NCBI GenBank assembly: GCA_019635575.1 | Contig: JAHBZF010000022.1 | Coordinates: forward strand, 1 to 37,083 | Source: Pseudolabrys sp. | Lineage (GTDB): Bacteria > Pseudomonadota > Alphaproteobacteria > Rhizobiales > Xanthobacteraceae | Length of the DNA: 37,083 bases | Direction of reading: 5' to 3' | In this document: positions 5,242 to 20,169 of the stretch, in pieces | Layout: every line of letters begins with the position of its first letter | Position numbering within the stretch: the first letter of the stretch is position 1 | Program-made: the position numbers and the translations under genes | Notes under the pieces: model-generated | What the model was told of the DNA's origin: nothing | Seen by the model: only the letters and a program-made list of their open reading frames with translations | The model's database searches: none

Positions 5242-5835
5242 TCACTCCACCTTCTCGCCGGGATAAGCGCCCCACAGGCGCTCCTGATGAATCCAGCCGT
5301 CGAAGCCCTTGCCGGCGATCCGGCACCAGGTTCCGGTACAGGACTTGATCGAGGCCAGTACGCCGGCCTGCAGCTTCGCCACCACCGCGCTTTCGCCGTC
5401 GGGGTCGCTGTACAGCAGGACGAGGTCGTCCTTCAGCTTGGGGACGATGGTCGCGGTACGCCGGCCGGACAAAAGCGAATGGTAAACCCAGCCCTCGGCG
5501 CCTTCCCAGTCGCGGATGCGGCGCCAGTTCTCGAATTCGGCGGTAATCTCCACCGGCATGCCCGGACGGGTATAGACCCAGCGGACGTCCTGGTCCTTGT
5601 TCGGGCCGCCGCGCACATTGACCTTGTCAGACTTTAGGCTGACGAAGCGCGGCACCGGCAGGCCGCTGACCGAGCCGGTGGCCAGTTCGCTCGCCGCCCG
5701 CGCCGGGCCGGCAGGCCACGTCAGACACCCGGCCGCGATGACGCATCCAAAAAAGCTTAAAAGAAAGCCGCAAAGAACACCTTTGGGGCCGGCTCCCCGC
5801 AGGCCGGCGCCGATGCTTTTTCTTGTCATTGCCAT
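5242..5835 (-). CDS. Exported protein with two bacterial SH3 domains
   Basis: A 197-residue protein with an N-terminal hydrophobic segment (GVLCGFLLSFFGCVIAAG) and a likely signal cleavage after GPARA. Two SH3-like repeats follow: one from FVSLKSDKVNVRGGPN to EGWVYHSLL, and one from DLVLLYSDPD to GWIHQERLWG. Bacterial SH3 domains of this type usually bind cell-wall peptides or support envelope protein interactions, so a periplasmic role is likely but the exact job is unknown. ATG 5835 is preferred, with ATG 5829 as an alternative; neither has a clear ribosome site. Further upstream the frame runs through the control region into the antisense of the divergent dehydrogenase. Confidence 0.8.
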   Translation of the reverse strand: MAMTRKSIGAGLRGAGPKGVLCGFLLSFFGCVIAAGCLTWPAGPARAASELATGSVSGLPVPRFVSLKSDKVNVRGGPNKDQDVRWVYTRPGMPVEITAEFENWRRIRDWEGAEGWVYHSLLSGRRTATIVPKLKDDLVLLYSDPDGESAVVAKLQAGVLASIKSCTGTWCRIAGKGFDGWIHQERLWGAYPGEKVE

Positions 5836-5917
5836 CTGATAGGAAGAACTGACTTCGCCAAAGGAACCTGATACGCGCGAAAGCGCAGTGTCTGCGAGCA
5901 CGGTTAAAGAGGGCTGA

Positions 5918-6919
5918 ATGGGCAAGGGTAAAAAGCCCCTGGTGATCGTTACCCGGAAGCTGCCGGATAACGTGGAACTGCGGATGCGCGAGCTGTTCGA
6001 CGTGCGTTTCAACGTCGACGACAAGCCGATGACACAGGCGCAGCTCGCCGAGGCGATGAAAACCGCCGACGTGCTGGTCCCGACCATCACCGACCGGATC
6101 GACGCCCCGCTGCTGGCCAAAGCCGGCGAACAGCTCAAGCTGATCGCCAATTTCGGCAACGGCGTCGACAATATCGACGTGGCGACGGCGGTTCAGCGCG
6201 GCATCACCGTGACCAACACGCCGGGCGTCCTCACCGAGGACACCGCCGACATGACCATGGCGCTGATCCTCGCGGTGCCGCGCCGGCTGGCGGAAGGCTC
6301 GACCCTGCTCAACGACGGCGGCGAGTGGCACGGCTGGTCGCCGACCTGGATGCTCGGCAAGCGCATCTGGGGCAAGCGGCTCGGCATCATCGGCATGGGC
6401 CGCATCGGCCAGGCGGTGGCGCGCCGCGCACAGGCGTTCGGCCTGCAGATCCACTACCACAACCGCCGCCGGGTCGCGGCCAAGATCGAAGAGGATCTGC
6501 ACGCGACCTATTGGGAGAGCCTCGACCAGATGCTCACCCGCATGGACATCATCTCGGTCAACTGTCCGCACACGCCGGCGACCTATCACCTGCTCTCGGC
6601 GCGGCGGCTGAAGCTGATCCGCCCCGACGCCTATATCGTCAACACCGCGCGCGGCGAAGTGATCGACGAGAACGCGCTGGCGCGTTTGCTGGAGAGCGGC
6701 GGCATCGCCGGCGCCGGTCTCGACGTGTTCGAGCATGCACCTGCGGTGAACCCGAAGCTCGTGAAGCTGGCACGCGCGGGCAAGGCGGTGCTGCTGCCGC
6801 ATATGGGGTCGTCGACGCTCGAAGGCCGCATCGACATGGGCGAGAAGGTGATCATCAATATCCGCACCTTCATGGACGGCCACAGGCCGCCCGACCGTGT
6901 TCTCCCGTCGATGTTATGA
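5918..6919 (+). CDS. D-2-hydroxyacid dehydrogenase (glyoxylate/hydroxypyruvate reductase type)
   Basis: A 333-residue NAD(P)-dependent D-isomer-specific 2-hydroxyacid dehydrogenase of usual family length. The dinucleotide-binding motif is LGIIGMGRIGQAVARRA. The catalytic triad is visible as Arg245 (NTARGEV), Glu272 (LDVFEHAP) and His295 (LLPHMGSST). The sequence FGNGVDNIDVATA near residue 80 is close to the substrate loop of glyoxylate reductases, so reduction of glyoxylate or hydroxypyruvate is most likely, though other 2-keto acids are possible. An AGAGGG ribosome site precedes ATG 5918. The promoter region of 82 bases is shared with the divergent SH3 gene. The stop abuts that of the convergent moeB-like gene. 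Confidence 0.88.
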   Translation: MGKGKKPLVIVTRKLPDNVELRMRELFDVRFNVDDKPMTQAQLAEAMKTADVLVPTITDRIDAPLLAKAGEQLKLIANFGNGVDNIDVATAVQRGITVTNTPGVLTEDTADMTMALILAVPRRLAEGSTLLNDGGEWHGWSPTWMLGKRIWGKRLGIIGMGRIGQAVARRAQAFGLQIHYHNRRRVAAKIEEDLHATYWESLDQMLTRMDIISVNCPHTPATYHLLSARRLKLIRPDAYIVNTARGEVIDENALARLLESGGIAGAGLDVFEHAPAVNPKLVKLARAGKAVLLPHMGSSTLEGRIDMGEKVIINIRTFMDGHRPPDRVLPSML

Positions 6920-7750
6920 TCAGGCCAGCGCCGTGATCGTCGGCGCGCGCCCGGACAACGGATTGTCCGGATTCCACCCGTAAGCGATGGTCTCGAAGCG
7001 CATGTCGCGCGCATCGACCATCAGCAGCCGGCCGACCAGGCCTTCGCCGAAGCCGACGATTTCGCGCATCACTTCCAGCGCCATCATCGAACCGAGAATG
7101 CCGGGCAGCGCGCCGAGCACGCCCGCTTCCGCGCAGGCCGGAATGCTGCCGGCGGGCGGCGGCTCCGGAAACAGACAACGATAGGTCGGGTTCGGCTCGC
7201 CATCGGCGCCGCGCTCATGCGCGCGGATCGTCGTCAGCGTGCCGTCGAAGCGGCCGATCGCTGCGGTGACCAGCGGCTTCTTCGCAAAGAAGCAGGCATC
7301 GGCGACGAGATAGCGCGTGGCGAAATTATCCGAGCCATCGGCGACGATGTCGTAGCGCGAGACGATCTCCAGCGCATTGTCCGCCGTGAGCCGCAGCGGA
7401 TGCGTCTCGACCGTCACATGTGGATTGAGCGCGGCGATCTTCGCGGCAGCACTGTCGACCTTGCGCATGCCGATGTCGGGCGTCGCATGGATGATCTGCC
7501 GCTGCAGATTGGACAGCGACACCGTATCGTCATCGACGACACCGAGCGTGCCGACGCCCGCCGCGGCGAGATACATCAACAGCGGCGCGCCAAGCCCGCC
7601 GGCGCCGATCGCCAGCACGCGGGCCTGCTGCAAGGCCGCCTGTCCCGGCCCGCCCACCTCGCGCAGCACGATATGGCGGGCATAGCGTTCGAGTTCCGAA
7701 GCATCAAGCATGAGCGGACCATTGGCGCTCGCGAGCACGGGGTCAAGCAC
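6920..7750 (-). CDS. moeB: MoeB/ThiF-type sulfur-carrier adenylyltransferase
   Basis: A 276-residue E1-like enzyme that adenylates the C-terminal glycine of a small sulfur carrier (MoaD or ThiS class) for molybdopterin or thiamine synthesis. Visible are the ATP-binding loop VLAIGAGGLGAPLLMYLA, the LSNLQRQIIH segment, DGSDNFATRYLV with its metal-binding Asp, and the conserved YRCLFPE and IPACAEAGVLG stretches. The two CxxC zinc-ligand pairs of E. coli MoeB are absent: only one Cys sits in YRCLF and there is no C-terminal pair. Translation may start at Met13 (7714) instead of 7750. MoeB versus ThiF cannot be settled from sequence alone. Confidence 0.83.
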   Translation of the reverse strand: MLDPVLASANGPLMLDASELERYARHIVLREVGGPGQAALQQARVLAIGAGGLGAPLLMYLAAAGVGTLGVVDDDTVSLSNLQRQIIHATPDIGMRKVDSAAAKIAALNPHVTVETHPLRLTADNALEIVSRYDIVADGSDNFATRYLVADACFFAKKPLVTAAIGRFDGTLTTIRAHERGADGEPNPTYRCLFPEPPPAGSIPACAEAGVLGALPGILGSMMALEVMREIVGFGEGLVGRLLMVDARDMRFETIAYGWNPDNPLSGRAPTITALA

Positions 7751-7816
7751 CCTGCTTTCCCCGCGCGCGGGTCTTGTCTAAGCTCGCCGTCCGGGATCAG
7801 CGATCGGGCCTTTCGT

Positions 7817-9313
7817 ATGTGGCGTTGCCGGATCATGAGCGTCCTCCTGTGCGCCGGTGCGGTGCTGGCCGCGCCGGGCGTGTTGACGCGCGCGCAGGCC
7901 GATGCCGACGGCGCGATCGGCCGACCCGATCCGGTCGAAGGGGAGCCGCGCATTGCTCCCACCGACCATCCGCCAGCACAGGCGAAACCACGCAAATCCG
8001 TCATTCCGCTGCCGAAACCGGCGCCTGGCGCGCCGGTGAGCGCCGAGGCCAAAGCAGAGAGCAAGCCTGAAGCCAAACCGGAAACCAAGCCGGAAACCAA
8101 GCCGGCGGTCGCCGCGCGACCGGCGCAGCCGGCCACAGCGACAATGACTCCACGCGAGCGTGGCGCCATCGAAGCCGCGCTGATGTTCTCCGGCGATGAC
8201 ACCGGCCCGGTCGATGGCGACGACGCCTGGACCAGTGCGGTGAAAGCATTTCAGCGGCGTATCAATGCCAAGGTCACCGGCACACTGACAGCGGAGGAGC
8301 GCGAGCGGCTCCTCGCCGCCCAGAAATCGCGCGAAAGCGAATACGGCTGGACACTGACCGACGATACCGCCACCGGCGTCCGCCTCGGCGTGCCGCGCAA
8401 GCTGATGCCGATCGAGCAGACAACGCGGGAGGGAACGCGCTTTACCTCACGGCATGGCGACATTCAGGTCGAGACCTTCCGCATCGCCAACGGCCTGACG
8501 CTCGCCGCCCTGTTCGCGATGGAGCGCAGCAAGCCGAGACCACGCCGCGTCGAATCGAGCAGCCTGCGCGAACCGCGCTTCAGTATTTTCGGGATGCAGG
8601 GGCTACGCCGCTTCGCCATGCACGCACAGGCCGGCAACGGCGAGATCCGCGGTTTTACCGTCAGCTACGATCAGGCGCTCGAGGGCATGCTCACGCCGCT
8701 GGCGACGGCGATGGCCAACAGCTTTGCCGCTTTCGCACCGGGCATCGCGCCGCCTGCCGACCGTTCGCAGCGCGTCGTCTATGGCAGCGGTGTGATCGTC
8801 TCGGCGACGGGCGACATCGTCACCGACCGCGCGATCACCGAGGATTGTCAGACCATCACCGTCGCGCATCTCGGTCCGGCGGAGCGCGTGGCGACGCGCG
8901 ACAGTATCGCACTGCTGCGCGTCTACGGCGCACGCAACCTGACACCGGCCGCGACCGGCGCACCAGGATCGAACAGCGACGTGATCGTGCGTGCGATCCC
9001 CGATCCGAAGACGCAGGACGGCAATACCGAGGTGAAGGAAACGCGCGCACGCCTCGCCGCCAGCGGCGCGGCCGTGCGGCTCGATCCGCCGCCCGCGACC
9101 ACGAGCGCCGGTGCCGGCGTGTTCGACACCGAAGGACGCCTGATCGGACTGTTGTCGCCGAAAGGCATGCAGCTCGCCAGCGCCGAAACGGTCGCGCCGC
9201 CGAGCGGATTGACGCCAGCGACGGTGGTTCAGGATTTGCTACCGGGTTCAACAAAATCCGCCACCGCACCGGCCACGGCGAGCATGGTGCGGATCGTCTG
9301 CGTGCGGCCGTAA
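7817..9313 (+). CDS. Exported peptidoglycan-binding protein with degenerate trypsin-like domain
   Basis: A 498-residue protein starting MWRCRIMSVLLCAGAVLAAP (Met7 is an alternative start) with a signal peptide ending near RAQA. A Pro/Lys-rich linker with KPEAKPETKPETKP (83-96) leads to a PG_binding_1-like domain (about 114-168; DDAWTSAVKAFQRRINAKVTG). A middle region (170-310) is not recognised. Residues 320-450 resemble a trypsin-like serine protease (VYGSGVIVSATGDIVTD, DSIALLRVYG, GVFDTEGRLIGLLS). The usual TNHHV histidine position reads TDRAI, and the GxSGxPVF serine position reads SAGAGVF, so both catalytic residues appear to be lost. A binding or scaffold role in the envelope is therefore more likely than proteolysis. 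Confidence 0.72.
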   Translation: MWRCRIMSVLLCAGAVLAAPGVLTRAQADADGAIGRPDPVEGEPRIAPTDHPPAQAKPRKSVIPLPKPAPGAPVSAEAKAESKPEAKPETKPETKPAVAARPAQPATATMTPRERGAIEAALMFSGDDTGPVDGDDAWTSAVKAFQRRINAKVTGTLTAEERERLLAAQKSRESEYGWTLTDDTATGVRLGVPRKLMPIEQTTREGTRFTSRHGDIQVETFRIANGLTLAALFAMERSKPRPRRVESSSLREPRFSIFGMQGLRRFAMHAQAGNGEIRGFTVSYDQALEGMLTPLATAMANSFAAFAPGIAPPADRSQRVVYGSGVIVSATGDIVTDRAITEDCQTITVAHLGPAERVATRDSIALLRVYGARNLTPAATGAPGSNSDVIVRAIPDPKTQDGNTEVKETRARLAASGAAVRLDPPPATTSAGAGVFDTEGRLIGLLSPKGMQLASAETVAPPSGLTPATVVQDLLPGSTKSATAPATASMVRIVCVRP

Positions 9314-11931: not shown

Positions 11932-13506
11932 ATGCTCGGCTCCATCCATCATCTGATCCGGCTCGGCCGCGCCGGCTTCGTGTTCGCGCGCGAGGGCGTG
12001 TTGTCGCTGGTCGATCCGCGTCCGTTGCCAGTACCGGCACGCACCGCGCTCGCTTTGGCGAGGCTGATCGAGCGGCGCGGCGTTAGCGACGGATCGAGCC
12101 GGCTCGCCAATGCACTGACACGACTCGGCCCGACCTATGTGAAGCTCGGACAATTCCTGGCGACACGGCAGGACGTGGTCGGCGCAGCCATCGCCCGCGA
12201 TCTCGAGCGGCTGCAGGACAAGATGCCGCCGTTTCCGCAGGCGGAAGCCGAACGCATCGTCGAGACCGCGCTGGAAGGCCCACTCTCCGCGCATTTTGTA
12301 TCGTTCAGCCCGCCCGTCGCCGCCGCCTCGATCGCACAGGTGCATCGCGCTGAAATCGACACGCCGGAGGGCCGCAAATCCGTCGCGGTGAAAGTGCTGC
12401 GCCCCGGCATCGAGCATCGCTTCAAGGTCGATCTCGACGCCTTCGCCTTTGCCGCCGCGCAGGCGGAAGCGTGGTCGAGCGAGGCGCAGCGGCTGCGCTT
12501 CATCGAAGTCGCGCGCACGCTGGCGCGCTCGGTGGCAATGGAGATGGATTTTCGGCTCGAAGCCGCCGCGCTCTCCGAGATGGCGGAGAACACGCGCGAC
12601 GACGACGGCTTCCGCGTGCCGGCGGTCGACTGGAACCGGACCACGCGCGATGTGCTCACGCTGGAATGGATCGACGGCACCGCACTCAACGATCGTGCCA
12701 CGCTCGCCGAAAAAGGTTTCGACCTGCCCGCCATCGGTCGCGCGGTGATCCAGAACTTCCTGCGCCACGCACTGCGCGACGGTTTCTTCCATGCCGACAT
12801 GCACCCCGGCAATCTGCTGGTCGACGACGACGGCAAGCTGATCGCCGTCGACTTCGGCATCATGGGGCGGCTTGGCCCGAAGGAGCGTTTGTTCCTCGCC
12901 GAGATTCTGTTCGGCTTCATCACCCGTGACTATCACCGCGTCGCGCAGGTGCATTTCGATGCCGGCTATGTGCCGCCGCATCACTCGGTCGACAATTTCG
13001 CGCAGGCGATCCGCGCCATCGGCGAGCCGATCCACAGCCGAACCGCCGAACAGATTTCCATGGCGAAGCTGCTGACGCTGCTGTTCGAGGTAACGGCACT
13101 GTTCGACATGCGCACGCGCCCGGAACTGCTGCTGTTGCAAAAGACCATGGTGGTGGTCGAGGGCGTGGCGCGAACGCTCGATCCGCGCCTCGACATGTGG
13201 AGCACCGCCGATCCCGTGGTGCGCGAATGGATGACGCAACGGCTCGGCCCCTCGGGACGGCTGCAGAACGCCGCCGAAGGCGCCGGCGAGATCGGCCGGT
13301 TCCTCTCCCAGGTGCCTGCGCTGCTGACCCGTGCCGGGCAGATCGCCGACCAGATGGACGAGGCCACCCGCAACGGGCTGGTGCTGGCCCCGGAGACGGT
13401 GACGGCGCTGACCCTTGCCGACCGCCGCGCCCGGCGCTGGCAGACGGTGGCCCTGTGGGTGATTGCAGCCCTGCTCGGCGGTTTGGTGATTCTTGCCTTG
13501 AATTGA
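11932..13506 (+). CDS. ubiB: UbiB atypical kinase of ubiquinone biosynthesis
   Basis: A 524-residue membrane-anchored protein of the UbiB/ABC1/COQ8 family, which supports ubiquinone synthesis through ATPase activity rather than ordinary protein kinase activity. Family hallmarks are visible: the KxGQ motif KLGQ (71-74), the alanine-rich loop AAASIAQVH (130-138) in place of the usual glycine loop, GFFHADMHPGNLLVDDDG and the metal-binding DFGIMG. The C-terminus (about 500-524; VALWVIAALLGGLVILAL) is a membrane anchor. The last three codons overlap the large palindrome that precedes coaBC. Confidence 0.95.
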   Translation: MLGSIHHLIRLGRAGFVFAREGVLSLVDPRPLPVPARTALALARLIERRGVSDGSSRLANALTRLGPTYVKLGQFLATRQDVVGAAIARDLERLQDKMPPFPQAEAERIVETALEGPLSAHFVSFSPPVAAASIAQVHRAEIDTPEGRKSVAVKVLRPGIEHRFKVDLDAFAFAAAQAEAWSSEAQRLRFIEVARTLARSVAMEMDFRLEAAALSEMAENTRDDDGFRVPAVDWNRTTRDVLTLEWIDGTALNDRATLAEKGFDLPAIGRAVIQNFLRHALRDGFFHADMHPGNLLVDDDGKLIAVDFGIMGRLGPKERLFLAEILFGFITRDYHRVAQVHFDAGYVPPHHSVDNFAQAIRAIGEPIHSRTAEQISMAKLLTLLFEVTALFDMRTRPELLLLQKTMVVVEGVARTLDPRLDMWSTADPVVREWMTQRLGPSGRLQNAAEGAGEIGRFLSQVPALLTRAGQIADQMDEATRNGLVLAPETVTALTLADRRARRWQTVALWVIAALLGGLVILALN

Positions 13507-13533
13507 TTGCATTGATTGCAATGCCATCAATTC
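13500..13533. repeat. 34-bp nested palindrome before coaBC, candidate operator
   Basis: The left half is GAATTGAT-T-GCATTG (13500-13514), the centre ATTG (13515-13518), and the right half CAATGC-C-ATCAATTC (13519-13533). The dyad is perfect except for one T/C pair of spacer bases and the four-base centre. It also contains the direct repeat ATTGATTGC twice (13502-13519). It is AT-rich in a GC-rich window, overlaps the ubiB stop, ends 19 bases before the coaBC ATG and has no T run behind it, so an operator is more likely than a terminator. The size is similar to the FitA operator as I recall it (about 36 bp). Confidence 0.6.
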
Positions 13534-13552
13534 CGGCCTAGTTTTGCTGCCC

Positions 13553-14964
13553 ATGGGCAGCCTGACCATCCGCAAGCTCGACGAGGCGATGAAGGCGCGG
13601 CTGCGGCTGCGCGCCGCCCGCAATGGCCGTTCGGTCGAAGAGGAGGCCCGCACCATCCTCCGCGACGCGGCGGCGGACGCCGAGAGTCCTCCGGCGGCTG
13701 ATCCAACCCCGACGGAGGCTCCTTCGGCCGCCGCGGCGGCAGCGAAGCCGGCTCGCGTGCTGCTGGTCATCGGCGGCGGCATTGCCGCCTACAAATCCCT
13801 CGACCTGATCCGCCGCCTGCGCGAGCGCGGCATCGCCGTGCGTTGCGTGCTCACGCGCGCGGGCAGCGAATTCATCACGCCGCTCTCGGTCGGCGCCATC
13901 GCCGGCGAGCGACCCTATACCGACCTGTTCAATCCCGACCACGAATTCGACGTCGGCCATATCCGGCTGGCGCGCGACACCGATCTCGTCATCGTCGCGC
14001 CGGCGACCGCCGACCTGATGGCGAAGATGGCGAACGGACATGCCGACGATCTCGCCACCGCCGTGCTGCTGGCGACCGACAAGCCGATCCTGCTCGCGCC
14101 GGCGATGAATCCGCGCATGTGGGCCAACAAAGCAACGCAGCGCAATGTCACGCGGTTGCAGAACGATGGCGTGACGCTTGTCGGCCCCGGCGAAGGCGAG
14201 ATGGCCGAACGCGGCGAGCGTGGACGTGGACGCATGGCCGAGCCGCTGGAGATCGCCGTACGCGTCACGGCATTGCTCGCGCCGCAAGATAAGCCACTCG
14301 CCGGCTATCGCATGCTGATCACATCCGGCCCGACCCATGAGCCGATCGATCCGGTGCGCTACATCGCCAACCGTTCGTCGGGCAAACAGGGCCATGCGAT
14401 CGCCGCGGCGGCCGCCGCCGCCGGTGCGGAGGTAACGCTGGTCAGTGGACCGGTGACGATCCCCGATCCGAACGGCATCACCGTCGTGCATGTGGAATCC
14501 GCGCGCGAAATGCTCGCCGCCGTGGAGAAAGCGATGCCCGCGGATATTGCGATTTTCGCCGCCGCCGTCGCCGACTGGCGTGTCGCGCGCGACAGCGAGC
14601 AGAAGATCAAGAAGCAGACCGGCGCGGCGACACCGGAACTGTCGCTGACGGAAAACCCCGACATCCTCGCCACTATTTCCAAACTGCCGCCGGCGCGCCG
14701 TCCGCCCCTGGTGATCGGCTTTGCCGCCGAGACCGAGCATGTGGAGCGTCACGCGCGCGAGAAGCTGGCGCGCAAGGGCTGCGACTGGATCGTCGCCAAC
14801 GATGTGTCGCCAGCCACCGGTATCATGGGCGGCGACAGCAACACCGTGCACCTCATCAGCGCCACCGGCATCGAACACTGGCCGCCGCAATCGAAAGACG
14901 CCGTCGCGCAGATGCTGATCGAGCACATCGCGCGGACGATGCTAGAAAAAATGAAAGCGAAATC

Positions 14965-14968
<4 letters not shown>
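13553..14968 (+). CDS. coaBC: CoaBC with N-terminal FitA-like ribbon-helix-helix domain
   Basis: A 471-residue bifunctional enzyme: phosphopantothenate-cysteine ligase plus phosphopantothenoylcysteine decarboxylase, two steps of coenzyme A synthesis. Residues 1-42 ([20 protein letters not shown], then [15 protein letters not shown]) match the ribbon-helix-helix domain of FitA-type antitoxins and are not part of ordinary CoaBC. An Ala/Pro linker (43-66) leads to the flavodoxin-like CoaC domain ([47 protein letters not shown]), then CoaB ([30 protein letters not shown]). ATG 13553 is the first ATG after ubiB. The dut start overlaps its stop (ATGA, 14965-14968). The fusion is continuous in frame, with no sign of a frameshift. 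Confidence 0.88.
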
Positions 14969-15453
<485 letters not shown>

Positions 15454-18630: not shown

Positions 18631-20169
18631 ATGTTCCCAACCACGGCTGGCAGCTCAAGTTTCACCGTCGCCCTGTCCGACGAACAGGCGACGCTGAAAC
18701 TGATGCGCGATATCGCGTCGATCATCGCGCCCGGCGACACAATCACGCTGTCGGGCGATCTCGGCGCCGGCAAGACGACGTTCGCGCGCGCACTGATCCG
18801 CCATTTCGCCGGCGATCCGCTGACGGAAGTGCCGAGCCCGACCTTCACACTGACGCAGAGCTACGACCTGCCGAAGTTTCCGCTGGTGCATGCCGATCTC
18901 TACCGGCTGTCCGGCGCGTCGGAACTGGCGGAACTCGGCTTCGACGACCTGCCGCCGACCGCCGTCACGCTGGTGGAATGGCCGGACCGCGCGGCCGGTT
19001 TCCTGCCGCCCGATCGCCTCGACATCGGTTTCACTTTGGCGCCGAAGCTCGGCCCGTCGCACCGCAATGCGCGTGTCACCGGCTATGGCAGCTTCGGCCC
19101 TCGCATCGAGCGGCTCAACGCGCTGCGCGTGTTCCTGGCCGCCTCGGGTCTCAGCGACGCCGAGCGCCAGCGCATCCAGGGCGACGCCTCGACCCGCATT
19201 TACGAGCGGCTCCGGCACGAGGGGCGCGATCTGATCCTGATGGATGCCCCACGCCGGCCGGACGGACCGCCGGTACAGGACGGCAAGCCCTACAGCGCCA
19301 TCGCCCATCTCGCCGAGGACGTGACGCCGTTCGTCGCCATGGCGCGTGGCCTGCGCGAGCGCGGCTTCTCCGCGCCCGCCGTGCTGCATGCGGATCGCGA
19401 TGCCGGCCTGCTGGTCCTGGAAGATCTCGGCAAGGAAGGCGTCGTGCGCGGCACGCCACCATCGCCGATTCCGGAGCGCTATGAAGCCGCCATCGACATG
19501 CTGGCCGCGCTGCACGGGCAGAAGCTGCCGGAGACGCTGCCGATCGATCCGGTCACGACCTATACGCTGCCGCACTACGATCTCGATGCGTTCCTGATCG
19601 AGCTTGAACTGCTGCCGGCGTGGTATCTGCCGATGCTCAACGCACCGCTGACGGAGGCACGCCGCGACACGTTCCTCTCGCTGTGGCGCGACCTGCTGCA
19701 ACCGCTGATCGACACCCAGTCGACCTGGGTGCTGCGCGACTTCCACTCGCCGAATCTGATGTGGCTGCCGCAGCGCAGCGGCATCGCCCGCGTCGGCCTG
19801 CTCGACTTTCAGGATGCCGTGATCGGTCCCGCGGCTTATGACGTCGCCTCGCTGCTGCAGGACGCCCGCATCGACGTGCCGGAAAAACTCGAACTCACGT
19901 TGCTGTCGCGCTATCTGCGCGCGCGCCACGATGCCGACCCGACCTTCGATGCCGCCGCATTCGCCGAACTCTATTCGGTGATGGCAGCGCAGCGCGCCAC
20001 GAAAATTCTCGGCATCTTCGCGCGGCTCGATCGCCGCGACCACAAGCCACAATATCTGCGTCATATCCCGCGTGTATGGAATTACCTGCAACGCGCGCTC
20101 GCGCACCCGGCGTTGAGCGGCCTGAAATCCTGGTACGCCATCGGCGTGCCGGCCTTGAAGACGATCTAG
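18631..20169 (+). CDS. Fused TsaE ATPase and AmgK-like sugar kinase
   Basis: A 512-residue two-domain protein. Residues 1-150 are TsaE, the ATPase needed for threonylcarbamoyl-adenosine formation on tRNA position 37 (Walker A SGDLGAGKTT, 41-50; EVPSPTFTLTQSYD; HADLYRLSG; VEWPDRA). Residues from about 165 are an aminoglycoside-phosphotransferase fold with the catalytic RDFHSPNLMWL (Asp370) and LLDFQDAVIGP (Asp392), matching AmgK, the anomeric MurNAc/GlcNAc kinase of peptidoglycan recycling. A GGAGG ribosome site lies six bases before ATG 18631. murU follows after eight bases, which supports the AmgK call. Fusions of this kind are annotated in other alphaproteobacteria. Confidence 0.87.
   Translation: MFPTTAGSSSFTVALSDEQATLKLMRDIASIIAPGDTITLSGDLGAGKTTFARALIRHFAGDPLTEVPSPTFTLTQSYDLPKFPLVHADLYRLSGASELAELGFDDLPPTAVTLVEWPDRAAGFLPPDRLDIGFTLAPKLGPSHRNARVTGYGSFGPRIERLNALRVFLAASGLSDAERQRIQGDASTRIYERLRHEGRDLILMDAPRRPDGPPVQDGKPYSAIAHLAEDVTPFVAMARGLRERGFSAPAVLHADRDAGLLVLEDLGKEGVVRGTPPSPIPERYEAAIDMLAALHGQKLPETLPIDPVTTYTLPHYDLDAFLIELELLPAWYLPMLNAPLTEARRDTFLSLWRDLLQPLIDTQSTWVLRDFHSPNLMWLPQRSGIARVGLLDFQDAVIGPAAYDVASLLQDARIDVPEKLELTLLSRYLRARHDADPTFDAAAFAELYSVMAAQRATKILGIFARLDRRDHKPQYLRHIPRVWNYLQRALAHPALSGLKSWYAIGVPALKTI

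Follow-up and report, generated by a model that had tools for sequence, protein, structure and literature searches.

A FitA-type ribbon-helix-helix domain fused to CoaBC and a conserved operator-like site point to autogenous control of a coenzyme A synthesis gene in Xanthobacteraceae

Why should an enzyme of coenzyme A synthesis begin with a DNA-binding domain typical of antitoxins, and which DNA might that domain read? We addressed this question for a gene of Pseudolabrys sp. (assembly GCA_019635575.1) carried by contig JAHBZF010000022.1, of which positions 1 to 37,083 were analyzed (the whole stretch of 37,083 nucleotides is hereafter called the window). On the basis of sequence comparisons, the protein is very probably both an enzyme and an autogenous repressor of its own gene, acting through a FitA-type operator inherited from a fitAB toxin-antitoxin (TA) pair. 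The gene and the parts of its protein are as follows.

13553 to 14968, forward strand: RHH-CoaBC fusion gene (471 amino acids from ATG; frame continuous)
13553 to 13672, forward strand: FitA-type ribbon-helix-helix (RHH) domain, residues 1 to 40 (PF22513; FitA chains by profile)
13673 to 13750, forward strand: Ala/Pro-rich linker, residues 41 to 66 (unconserved; no FitA toxin-binding tail recognized)
13751 to 14968, forward strand: bifunctional CoaBC (CoaC then CoaB), residues 67 to 471 plus stop codon (TIGR00521, PF02441, PF04127, 6tgv)

An earlier note, made from the sequence alone, had proposed an N-terminal FitA-type RHH domain joined by a linker to a complete CoaBC, and profile searches recovered both parts in one continuous frame. 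The profile PF22513 (FitA-like_RHH) matched residues 3 to 40 over profile positions 2 to 39 of 39, i.e., the whole domain (E = 3.8e-15; score 56 bits, cut-off 27), and the E value was 6.8e-17 with the first 67 residues alone as the query. A single RHH sequence matched the FitA chains in the PDB weakly (E = 0.029 and 0.037), and a profile built from 15 fused RHH domains placed FitA chains at the top of the PDB matches (2h1o, 1.3e-7; 2bsq, 2.8e-7). In the PDB search with the whole protein, CoaBC 6tgv was matched at E = 8.7e-75, and residues 1 to 53 were covered by none of the matches listed. The TIGR00521 (coaBC_dfp) match spans residues 67 to 459 and profile positions 4 to 391 of 392 (403.9 bits against a cut-off of 219.7); thus, the CoaC and CoaB domains are both complete. 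Since this is the only CoaBC copy found in the source genome (a draft, 83.6% complete), it must serve as the enzyme. The continuous frame and the occurrence of the same fusion in 84 of 143 classified genomes of the family indicate that the fusion is no accident of assembly.

These 143 genomes come from a search of 149 sampled Xanthobacteraceae genomes, 147 of which gave a match. Besides the 84 with the fusion, 6 have an unfused coaBC with fitA as a gene of its own shortly before it and 53 have neither; the genomes are related to each other and many are drafts, such that the counts are not independent. Four matched genomes stayed unclassified: in G055 and G147 the RHH match is on a different contig from most of coaBC, and for G004 and G048 the loci were not fetched and the matches listed are partial. 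The earlier statement that known CoaBC proteins start directly at the flavodoxin fold holds for 59 of the 143 genomes (i.e., those with the ordinary unfused form) and fails for the sample as a whole, in which the fused form is the majority. In the order Hyphomicrobiales (397 genomes; 20 places fetched), 9 further fused genes were found in families f15 and f22 (L181 to L189); their RHH and linker sequences differ, and one (L185) lies in a 1.6-Mb genome. Among the matches listed for a class-level sample (387 genomes, one profile), the RHH domain occurred in open frames of more than 397 amino acids in the source genome and in G024 (Xanthobacteraceae), and those outside the family were in frames of at most 397 amino acids. 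The best 30 of 69 records from a protein search of a plasmid collection start at query residue 68 or 69, i.e., without the fusion. A literature search for CoaBC or phosphopantothenoylcysteine (decarboxylase) together with a ribbon-helix-helix, FitA, or antitoxin fusion found none, and one on coaBC autoregulation returned only items unrelated by title.

Among the fused genes, the median dN/dS was 0.30 over the RHH domain, as against 0.28 over the first 40 codons of CoaC, and the mean amino acid identity was 0.72 for the RHH domain and 0.73 for the start of CoaC. The linker, in contrast, is 21 to 51 residues long, with a mean identity of 0.21 (600 random pairs) and a composition of 21% Ala and 15% Pro. 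That the RHH codons are under purifying selection next to an unconserved linker argues that the extension is translated. Eight RHH residues are invariant in all 84 fused proteins (R7, R20, A22, S27, E29, E31, R33, and L36), and T5 is kept in 83. In RHH proteins, the first strand (about residues 3 to 7) reads the DNA. A valine of the DNA-binding sheet contacts a thymine in the FitAB-DNA structure, according to the available part of one report (PMC3325190); by profile alignment, we read this valine as the probable counterpart of T5 or its neighbor.

The key part of the locus, which the earlier note missed, is an operator-like site between the upstream gene and the fusion. Its features and those of the adjoining genes are listed here.

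11932 to 13506, forward strand: ubiB (ABC1 family); its stop codon (13504 to 13506) forms the first three bases of the predicted operator
13500 to 13533, no strand assigned: extended inverted repeat around the predicted operator (15-nt arms, 93% complementary)
13504 to 13529, forward strand: predicted operator of 26 bp, TGATTGCA-T-TGATTGCA-A-TGCCATCA (three half-sites at 9-bp intervals, of which the last is inverted)
13516 to 13544, forward strand: tentative promoter, TTGCAA - 17 bp - TAGTTT (overlaps the operator; read from the sequence; weak relative to the consensus)
14965 to 15453, forward strand: dut (dUTPase); its start overlaps the coaBC stop codon (ATGA, 14965 to 14968)

The predicted operator lies 23 bp before the start codon and has one mismatch to the consensus, in the third half-site. 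On either strand of the whole window, exact TGATTGCA occurs as the two operator copies and at 13460 to 13467, and nowhere else; that third copy falls within the coding region of ubiB. Among the first 70 loci, this octamer was present on either strand within 160 bp upstream of 44 of the 50 fused genes and of 0 of the 20 unfused genes; at two of these 20 (L061 and L063), fitA stands further upstream as a gene of its own. No 8-mer was more frequent before the fused genes, and shuffling would give it in 0.125 of 50. Family-wide, TGATTGCA was found within 200 bp (counted from the RHH start, or from the CoaC core where the RHH is absent) of 70 of 84 fused genes, 3 of 6 genes with a separate fitA, and 1 of 53 with neither (G146, the one exception in that class). 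The degenerate half-site TGAYNGCA was found within the same distance of 79, 3, and 4 of these genes, respectively (shuffle means, 3.2, 0.1, and 1.85). The half-site counts were the same after the ubiB coding context was masked. The separate-fitA genomes without a half-site are G009, G044, and G074. As for the five fused genes without TGAYNGCA within 200 bp, G043 has it further upstream, and the others show variants such as TGATATCA. Outside the family, 8 of the 9 fused genes have TGAYNGCA and 7 have the exact octamer; L185 is without a half-site.

Two genomes can be compared at the residue that may read the DNA. G036 (L038), which carries TGATATCA-type repeats and not TGATTGCA, has the only fused protein with isoleucine at position 5, and it is possible that reader and site changed together in this genome. 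G093 has TGATATCA-type repeats too, yet T5 is kept.

With up to 3 mismatches, the 26-mer consensus TGATTGCATTGATTGCAATGCAATCA gave 43 rows in 38 of the 149 family genomes (reversed-pattern control, 0). When their coordinates were compared by eye, all 43 lay before coaBC, before fitA-coaBC, or on a contig with an RHH fragment; in G079 and G049, the row precedes the separate fitA. The exact degenerate form TGATTGCAWTGATTGCANTGCAATCA was found at 37 loci in a collection of 84,980 genomes (one per species), from which the source genome itself may be missing. All 37 loci adjoin an RHH of the FitA-like kind, which indicates that TGATTGCAWTGATTGCANTGCAATCA pairs with this type of domain. Thirty-four are on RHH-CoaBC (32 directly before it, L232 in the other orientation, and L214 with the RHH running into CoaC to its end), and the other three are a fitA-(deleted fitB)-coaBC locus (L206), an ordinary fitA-fitB pair (L229), and a locus in which the RHH is cut off by the end of the available DNA (L207). 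Since L229 is a normal toxin-antitoxin pair (PIN, 7e-14; coaBC absent from the stretch read on that side), the operator word is probably a FitA operator. Two further ordinary fitAB pairs (L195 and L200) carry the close half-sites TGCTATCA or TGATAGCA, and the exact octamer TGATTGCA is absent at L190, L196, L197, and L199. The gonococcal FitAB operator contains TGATAGCA; a literature search for TGATAGCA together with FitA found none.

The position of the site suggests how it could act. A scan for consensus promoters found none at the site. Of the 84 fused genes, 22 qualify by an exact right half for a test of the -10 register, and in 13 of these TANNNT follows the central TTGATT at 17 bp, a register picked after the sequences had been viewed (shuffle mean, 0.33; shuffle maximum, 3; other offsets, 0 to 3). 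The operator would cover the -35 element and the spacer of the tentative promoter, so a bound protein would repress by occlusion. Because the dut start lies within the coaBC stop codon, dut is probably cotranscribed with coaBC and under the same control. The gene order is ubiE, ubiB, predicted operator, RHH-coaBC, dut, and a gene for an Rrf2-type regulator. In agreement with the earlier note, no toxin gene was found among the neighbors examined; ubiB and dut flank the fusion, with no adjacent PIN gene, and some relatives carry a gene for a PIN toxin at that very position. The window gave nothing in Rfam at gathering scores, and no tRNAs were found in it. Elsewhere in the window, an open reading frame (ORF) at 18631 to 20169 combines a TsaE domain with an APH-type kinase domain, and two ORFs have no Pfam match at E = 1e-5 (7217 to 9313, 698 amino acids; 5627 to 6883 on the reverse strand, 418 amino acids).

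Several relatives resemble intermediates between a fitAB pair and the fusion. The order fitA, intact PIN gene, and unfused coaBC is found in G079 (L061/L102; PF22513 E = 1.1e-19 for its separate FitA), G096 (L170), G074 (L107), and G044 (L108), whose PIN genes score 42.8 to 54.8 bits with PF01850 (cut-off, 23.6), and also in L190 and L194 of family f32. Half-sites accompany the intact pair in G079 and G096 and are absent in G074 and G044. In G009 (L152) and G049 (L063/L103), fitA is kept and fitB is seemingly reduced to its first and last codons; the CoaBC of G049 falls among fused relatives in trees. Given these intact pairs, mostly deleted fitB genes, and fusions among relatives, the likely order of steps is a fitAB-coaBC arrangement, then toxin loss, then fusion. 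In G146 (L162), a half-site precedes the coaBC start, perhaps along with the final bases of fitB, and this half-site may be a scar of a lost fitAB, although this is suggestive only. The fused label has to change at least 2 times on one quick tree (142 rows) and at least 3 times on another (78 rows). Forcing a single fusion clade on 45 CoaBC sequences (28 fused), hand-picked after earlier trees, cost 33.85 log-likelihood units and was not rejected (p-AU = 0.064). Repeated fusion is likely. The RHH tree (42 columns; poorly resolved, with wrong starts for G132 and G139) carries no firm conclusion.

In the working that we propose, the N-terminal RHH domains would pair across subunits of the CoaBC oligomer, and the paired domains would bind the inherited FitA-type operator (half-site near TGATNGCA) over the coaBC -35 element and spacer. 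A rise in the enzyme level would then shut off coaBC and probably also dut behind it. The domain and the operator would both derive from a fitAB pair between ubiB and coaBC, the toxin having been lost and the DNA-binding half of the antitoxin joined to the enzyme. In the known complex, FitB holds FitA dimers together on DNA (PMC3920265, in the part available), and the CoaBC oligomer may have taken the place of FitB as the scaffold for the RHH dimers. The CoaBC proteins of two mycobacteria are dodecamers, and that of Mycobacterium tuberculosis is inhibited by CoA thioesters, as stated in the accessible text of PMC7794376. The level of the enzyme, and perhaps its ligand state as well, would thereby set repression. 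A bolder version, which we put forward tentatively as possible but somewhat doubtful, is that a TA module took over an essential gene's promoter, that its toxin was deleted and the DNA-binding half of its antitoxin fused (probably more than once), and that the binding of CoA or substrates to the enzyme tunes repression. This would be a metabolic counterpart of the tuning of antitoxin repression by toxins, and a direct transcriptional feedback on coenzyme A synthesis. The earlier note had suggested autogenous control or an origin from an antitoxin. Both are supported by the conserved operator-like site at the promoter region of fused genes, by the operator word at the L229 fitAB pair, and by the intact or mostly deleted fitAB before coaBC in relatives.

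It is exceedingly improbable that the extension stays untranslated, with the enzyme starting inside the linker (e.g., at the GTG of V69, a possible internal start in the window). Internal starts are possible by codons alone, given that the linker or first CoaC codons contain ATG, GTG, or TTG in 59 of the 84 fused genes. However, 70 of the 84 have no ATG there (14 have one), in contrast to the unfused genes, all 59 of which have ATG or GTG close to the core, and the selection on RHH codons described above speaks for the extension being made. The RHH start codon itself is ATG, TTG, or GTG in 83 of the 84 fused genes and ACG in one. The dN/dS of the RHH domain, close to that of the enzyme beside a decayed linker, also weighs against a passive relic, i.e., a fusion tolerated after toxin loss with a site surviving by common descent and without a regulatory role. 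The eight invariant residues point the same way, as do the letters of the site, which are kept while their distance to the start codon varies. We therefore regard such a relic as very unlikely, even though the RHH-site system is dispensable, given that three unfused genomes placed close to or within the fused group (G071, G128, and G038) gave no half-site in 260 bp when up to 1 mismatch was allowed.

The domain could instead be a domesticated antitoxin in the strict sense, kept to neutralize FitB toxins made elsewhere in the cell. It is of the FitA type, and Hyphomicrobiales genomes contain FitA-like genes at other places. Such antitoxins, however, grip their toxin by a C-terminal tail. A FitA-tail-like pattern, drawn from six separate FitA proteins and thus one that a diverged tail could escape, was present in 1 of the 84 linkers; what persists is the DNA-binding half and its site, and we consider this role highly improbable. 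Control of a set of genes by RHH-CoaBC, or activation, beyond repression of itself is somewhat less remote and still unlikely. AmrZ, an RHH protein, acts as an activator as well as a repressor (PMC3325190, as far as the available part goes), and repression and activation are alike by sequence, which does not separate them. Against a gene set, a search of 12 fused genomes for the 17-mer core (up to 1 mismatch) gave sites in 7, all of them at coaBC, and none anywhere in the other 5; control thus looks autogenous and not regulon-wide within the sensitivity of this search. The source genome (83.6% complete) likewise has one 26-mer match at up to 3 mismatches, with a single mismatch, in a search that degenerate sites would escape.

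If autogenous repression by RHH-CoaBC is true, coenzyme A synthesis would be under transcriptional feedback in these bacteria. This feedback is apparently built into the enzyme itself in a large bacterial group, with a short operator. The relatives would further provide snapshots resembling the passage of a TA module into a housekeeping regulator (i.e., intact pair, deleted toxin, and fusion).

RHH-CoaBC can be compared with three known systems. With the ordinary bifunctional CoaBC (Dfp; 6tgv), it has the complete CoaC and CoaB parts in common; it differs by the 66-residue RHH-linker extension and the operator-like site. With FitAB (PF22513 antitoxin and PIN toxin; 2h1o), it shares the RHH family by profile, the same operator word at the L229 pair, and close half-sites at L195 and L200. 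Unlike FitAB, RHH-CoaBC has no toxin and no recognizable toxin-binding tail, and its DNA-binding domain is attached to CoaBC. PutA carries an N-terminal RHH domain on a metabolic flavoenzyme and is an autogenous repressor of the put genes, as described in the part of PMC5293562 that was available. The likeness to PutA would be one of working and not of descent, i.e., an RHH-enzyme fusion whose own gene is preceded by a conserved site. The enzyme and the pathway are different, the RHH and the site are of the FitA type, a membrane switch is not expected, and the oligomer is probably larger, judging from mycobacterial CoaBC. RHH-CoaBC would thus be another RHH-enzyme repressor besides PutA, in a biosynthetic pathway and with an origin that is traceable.
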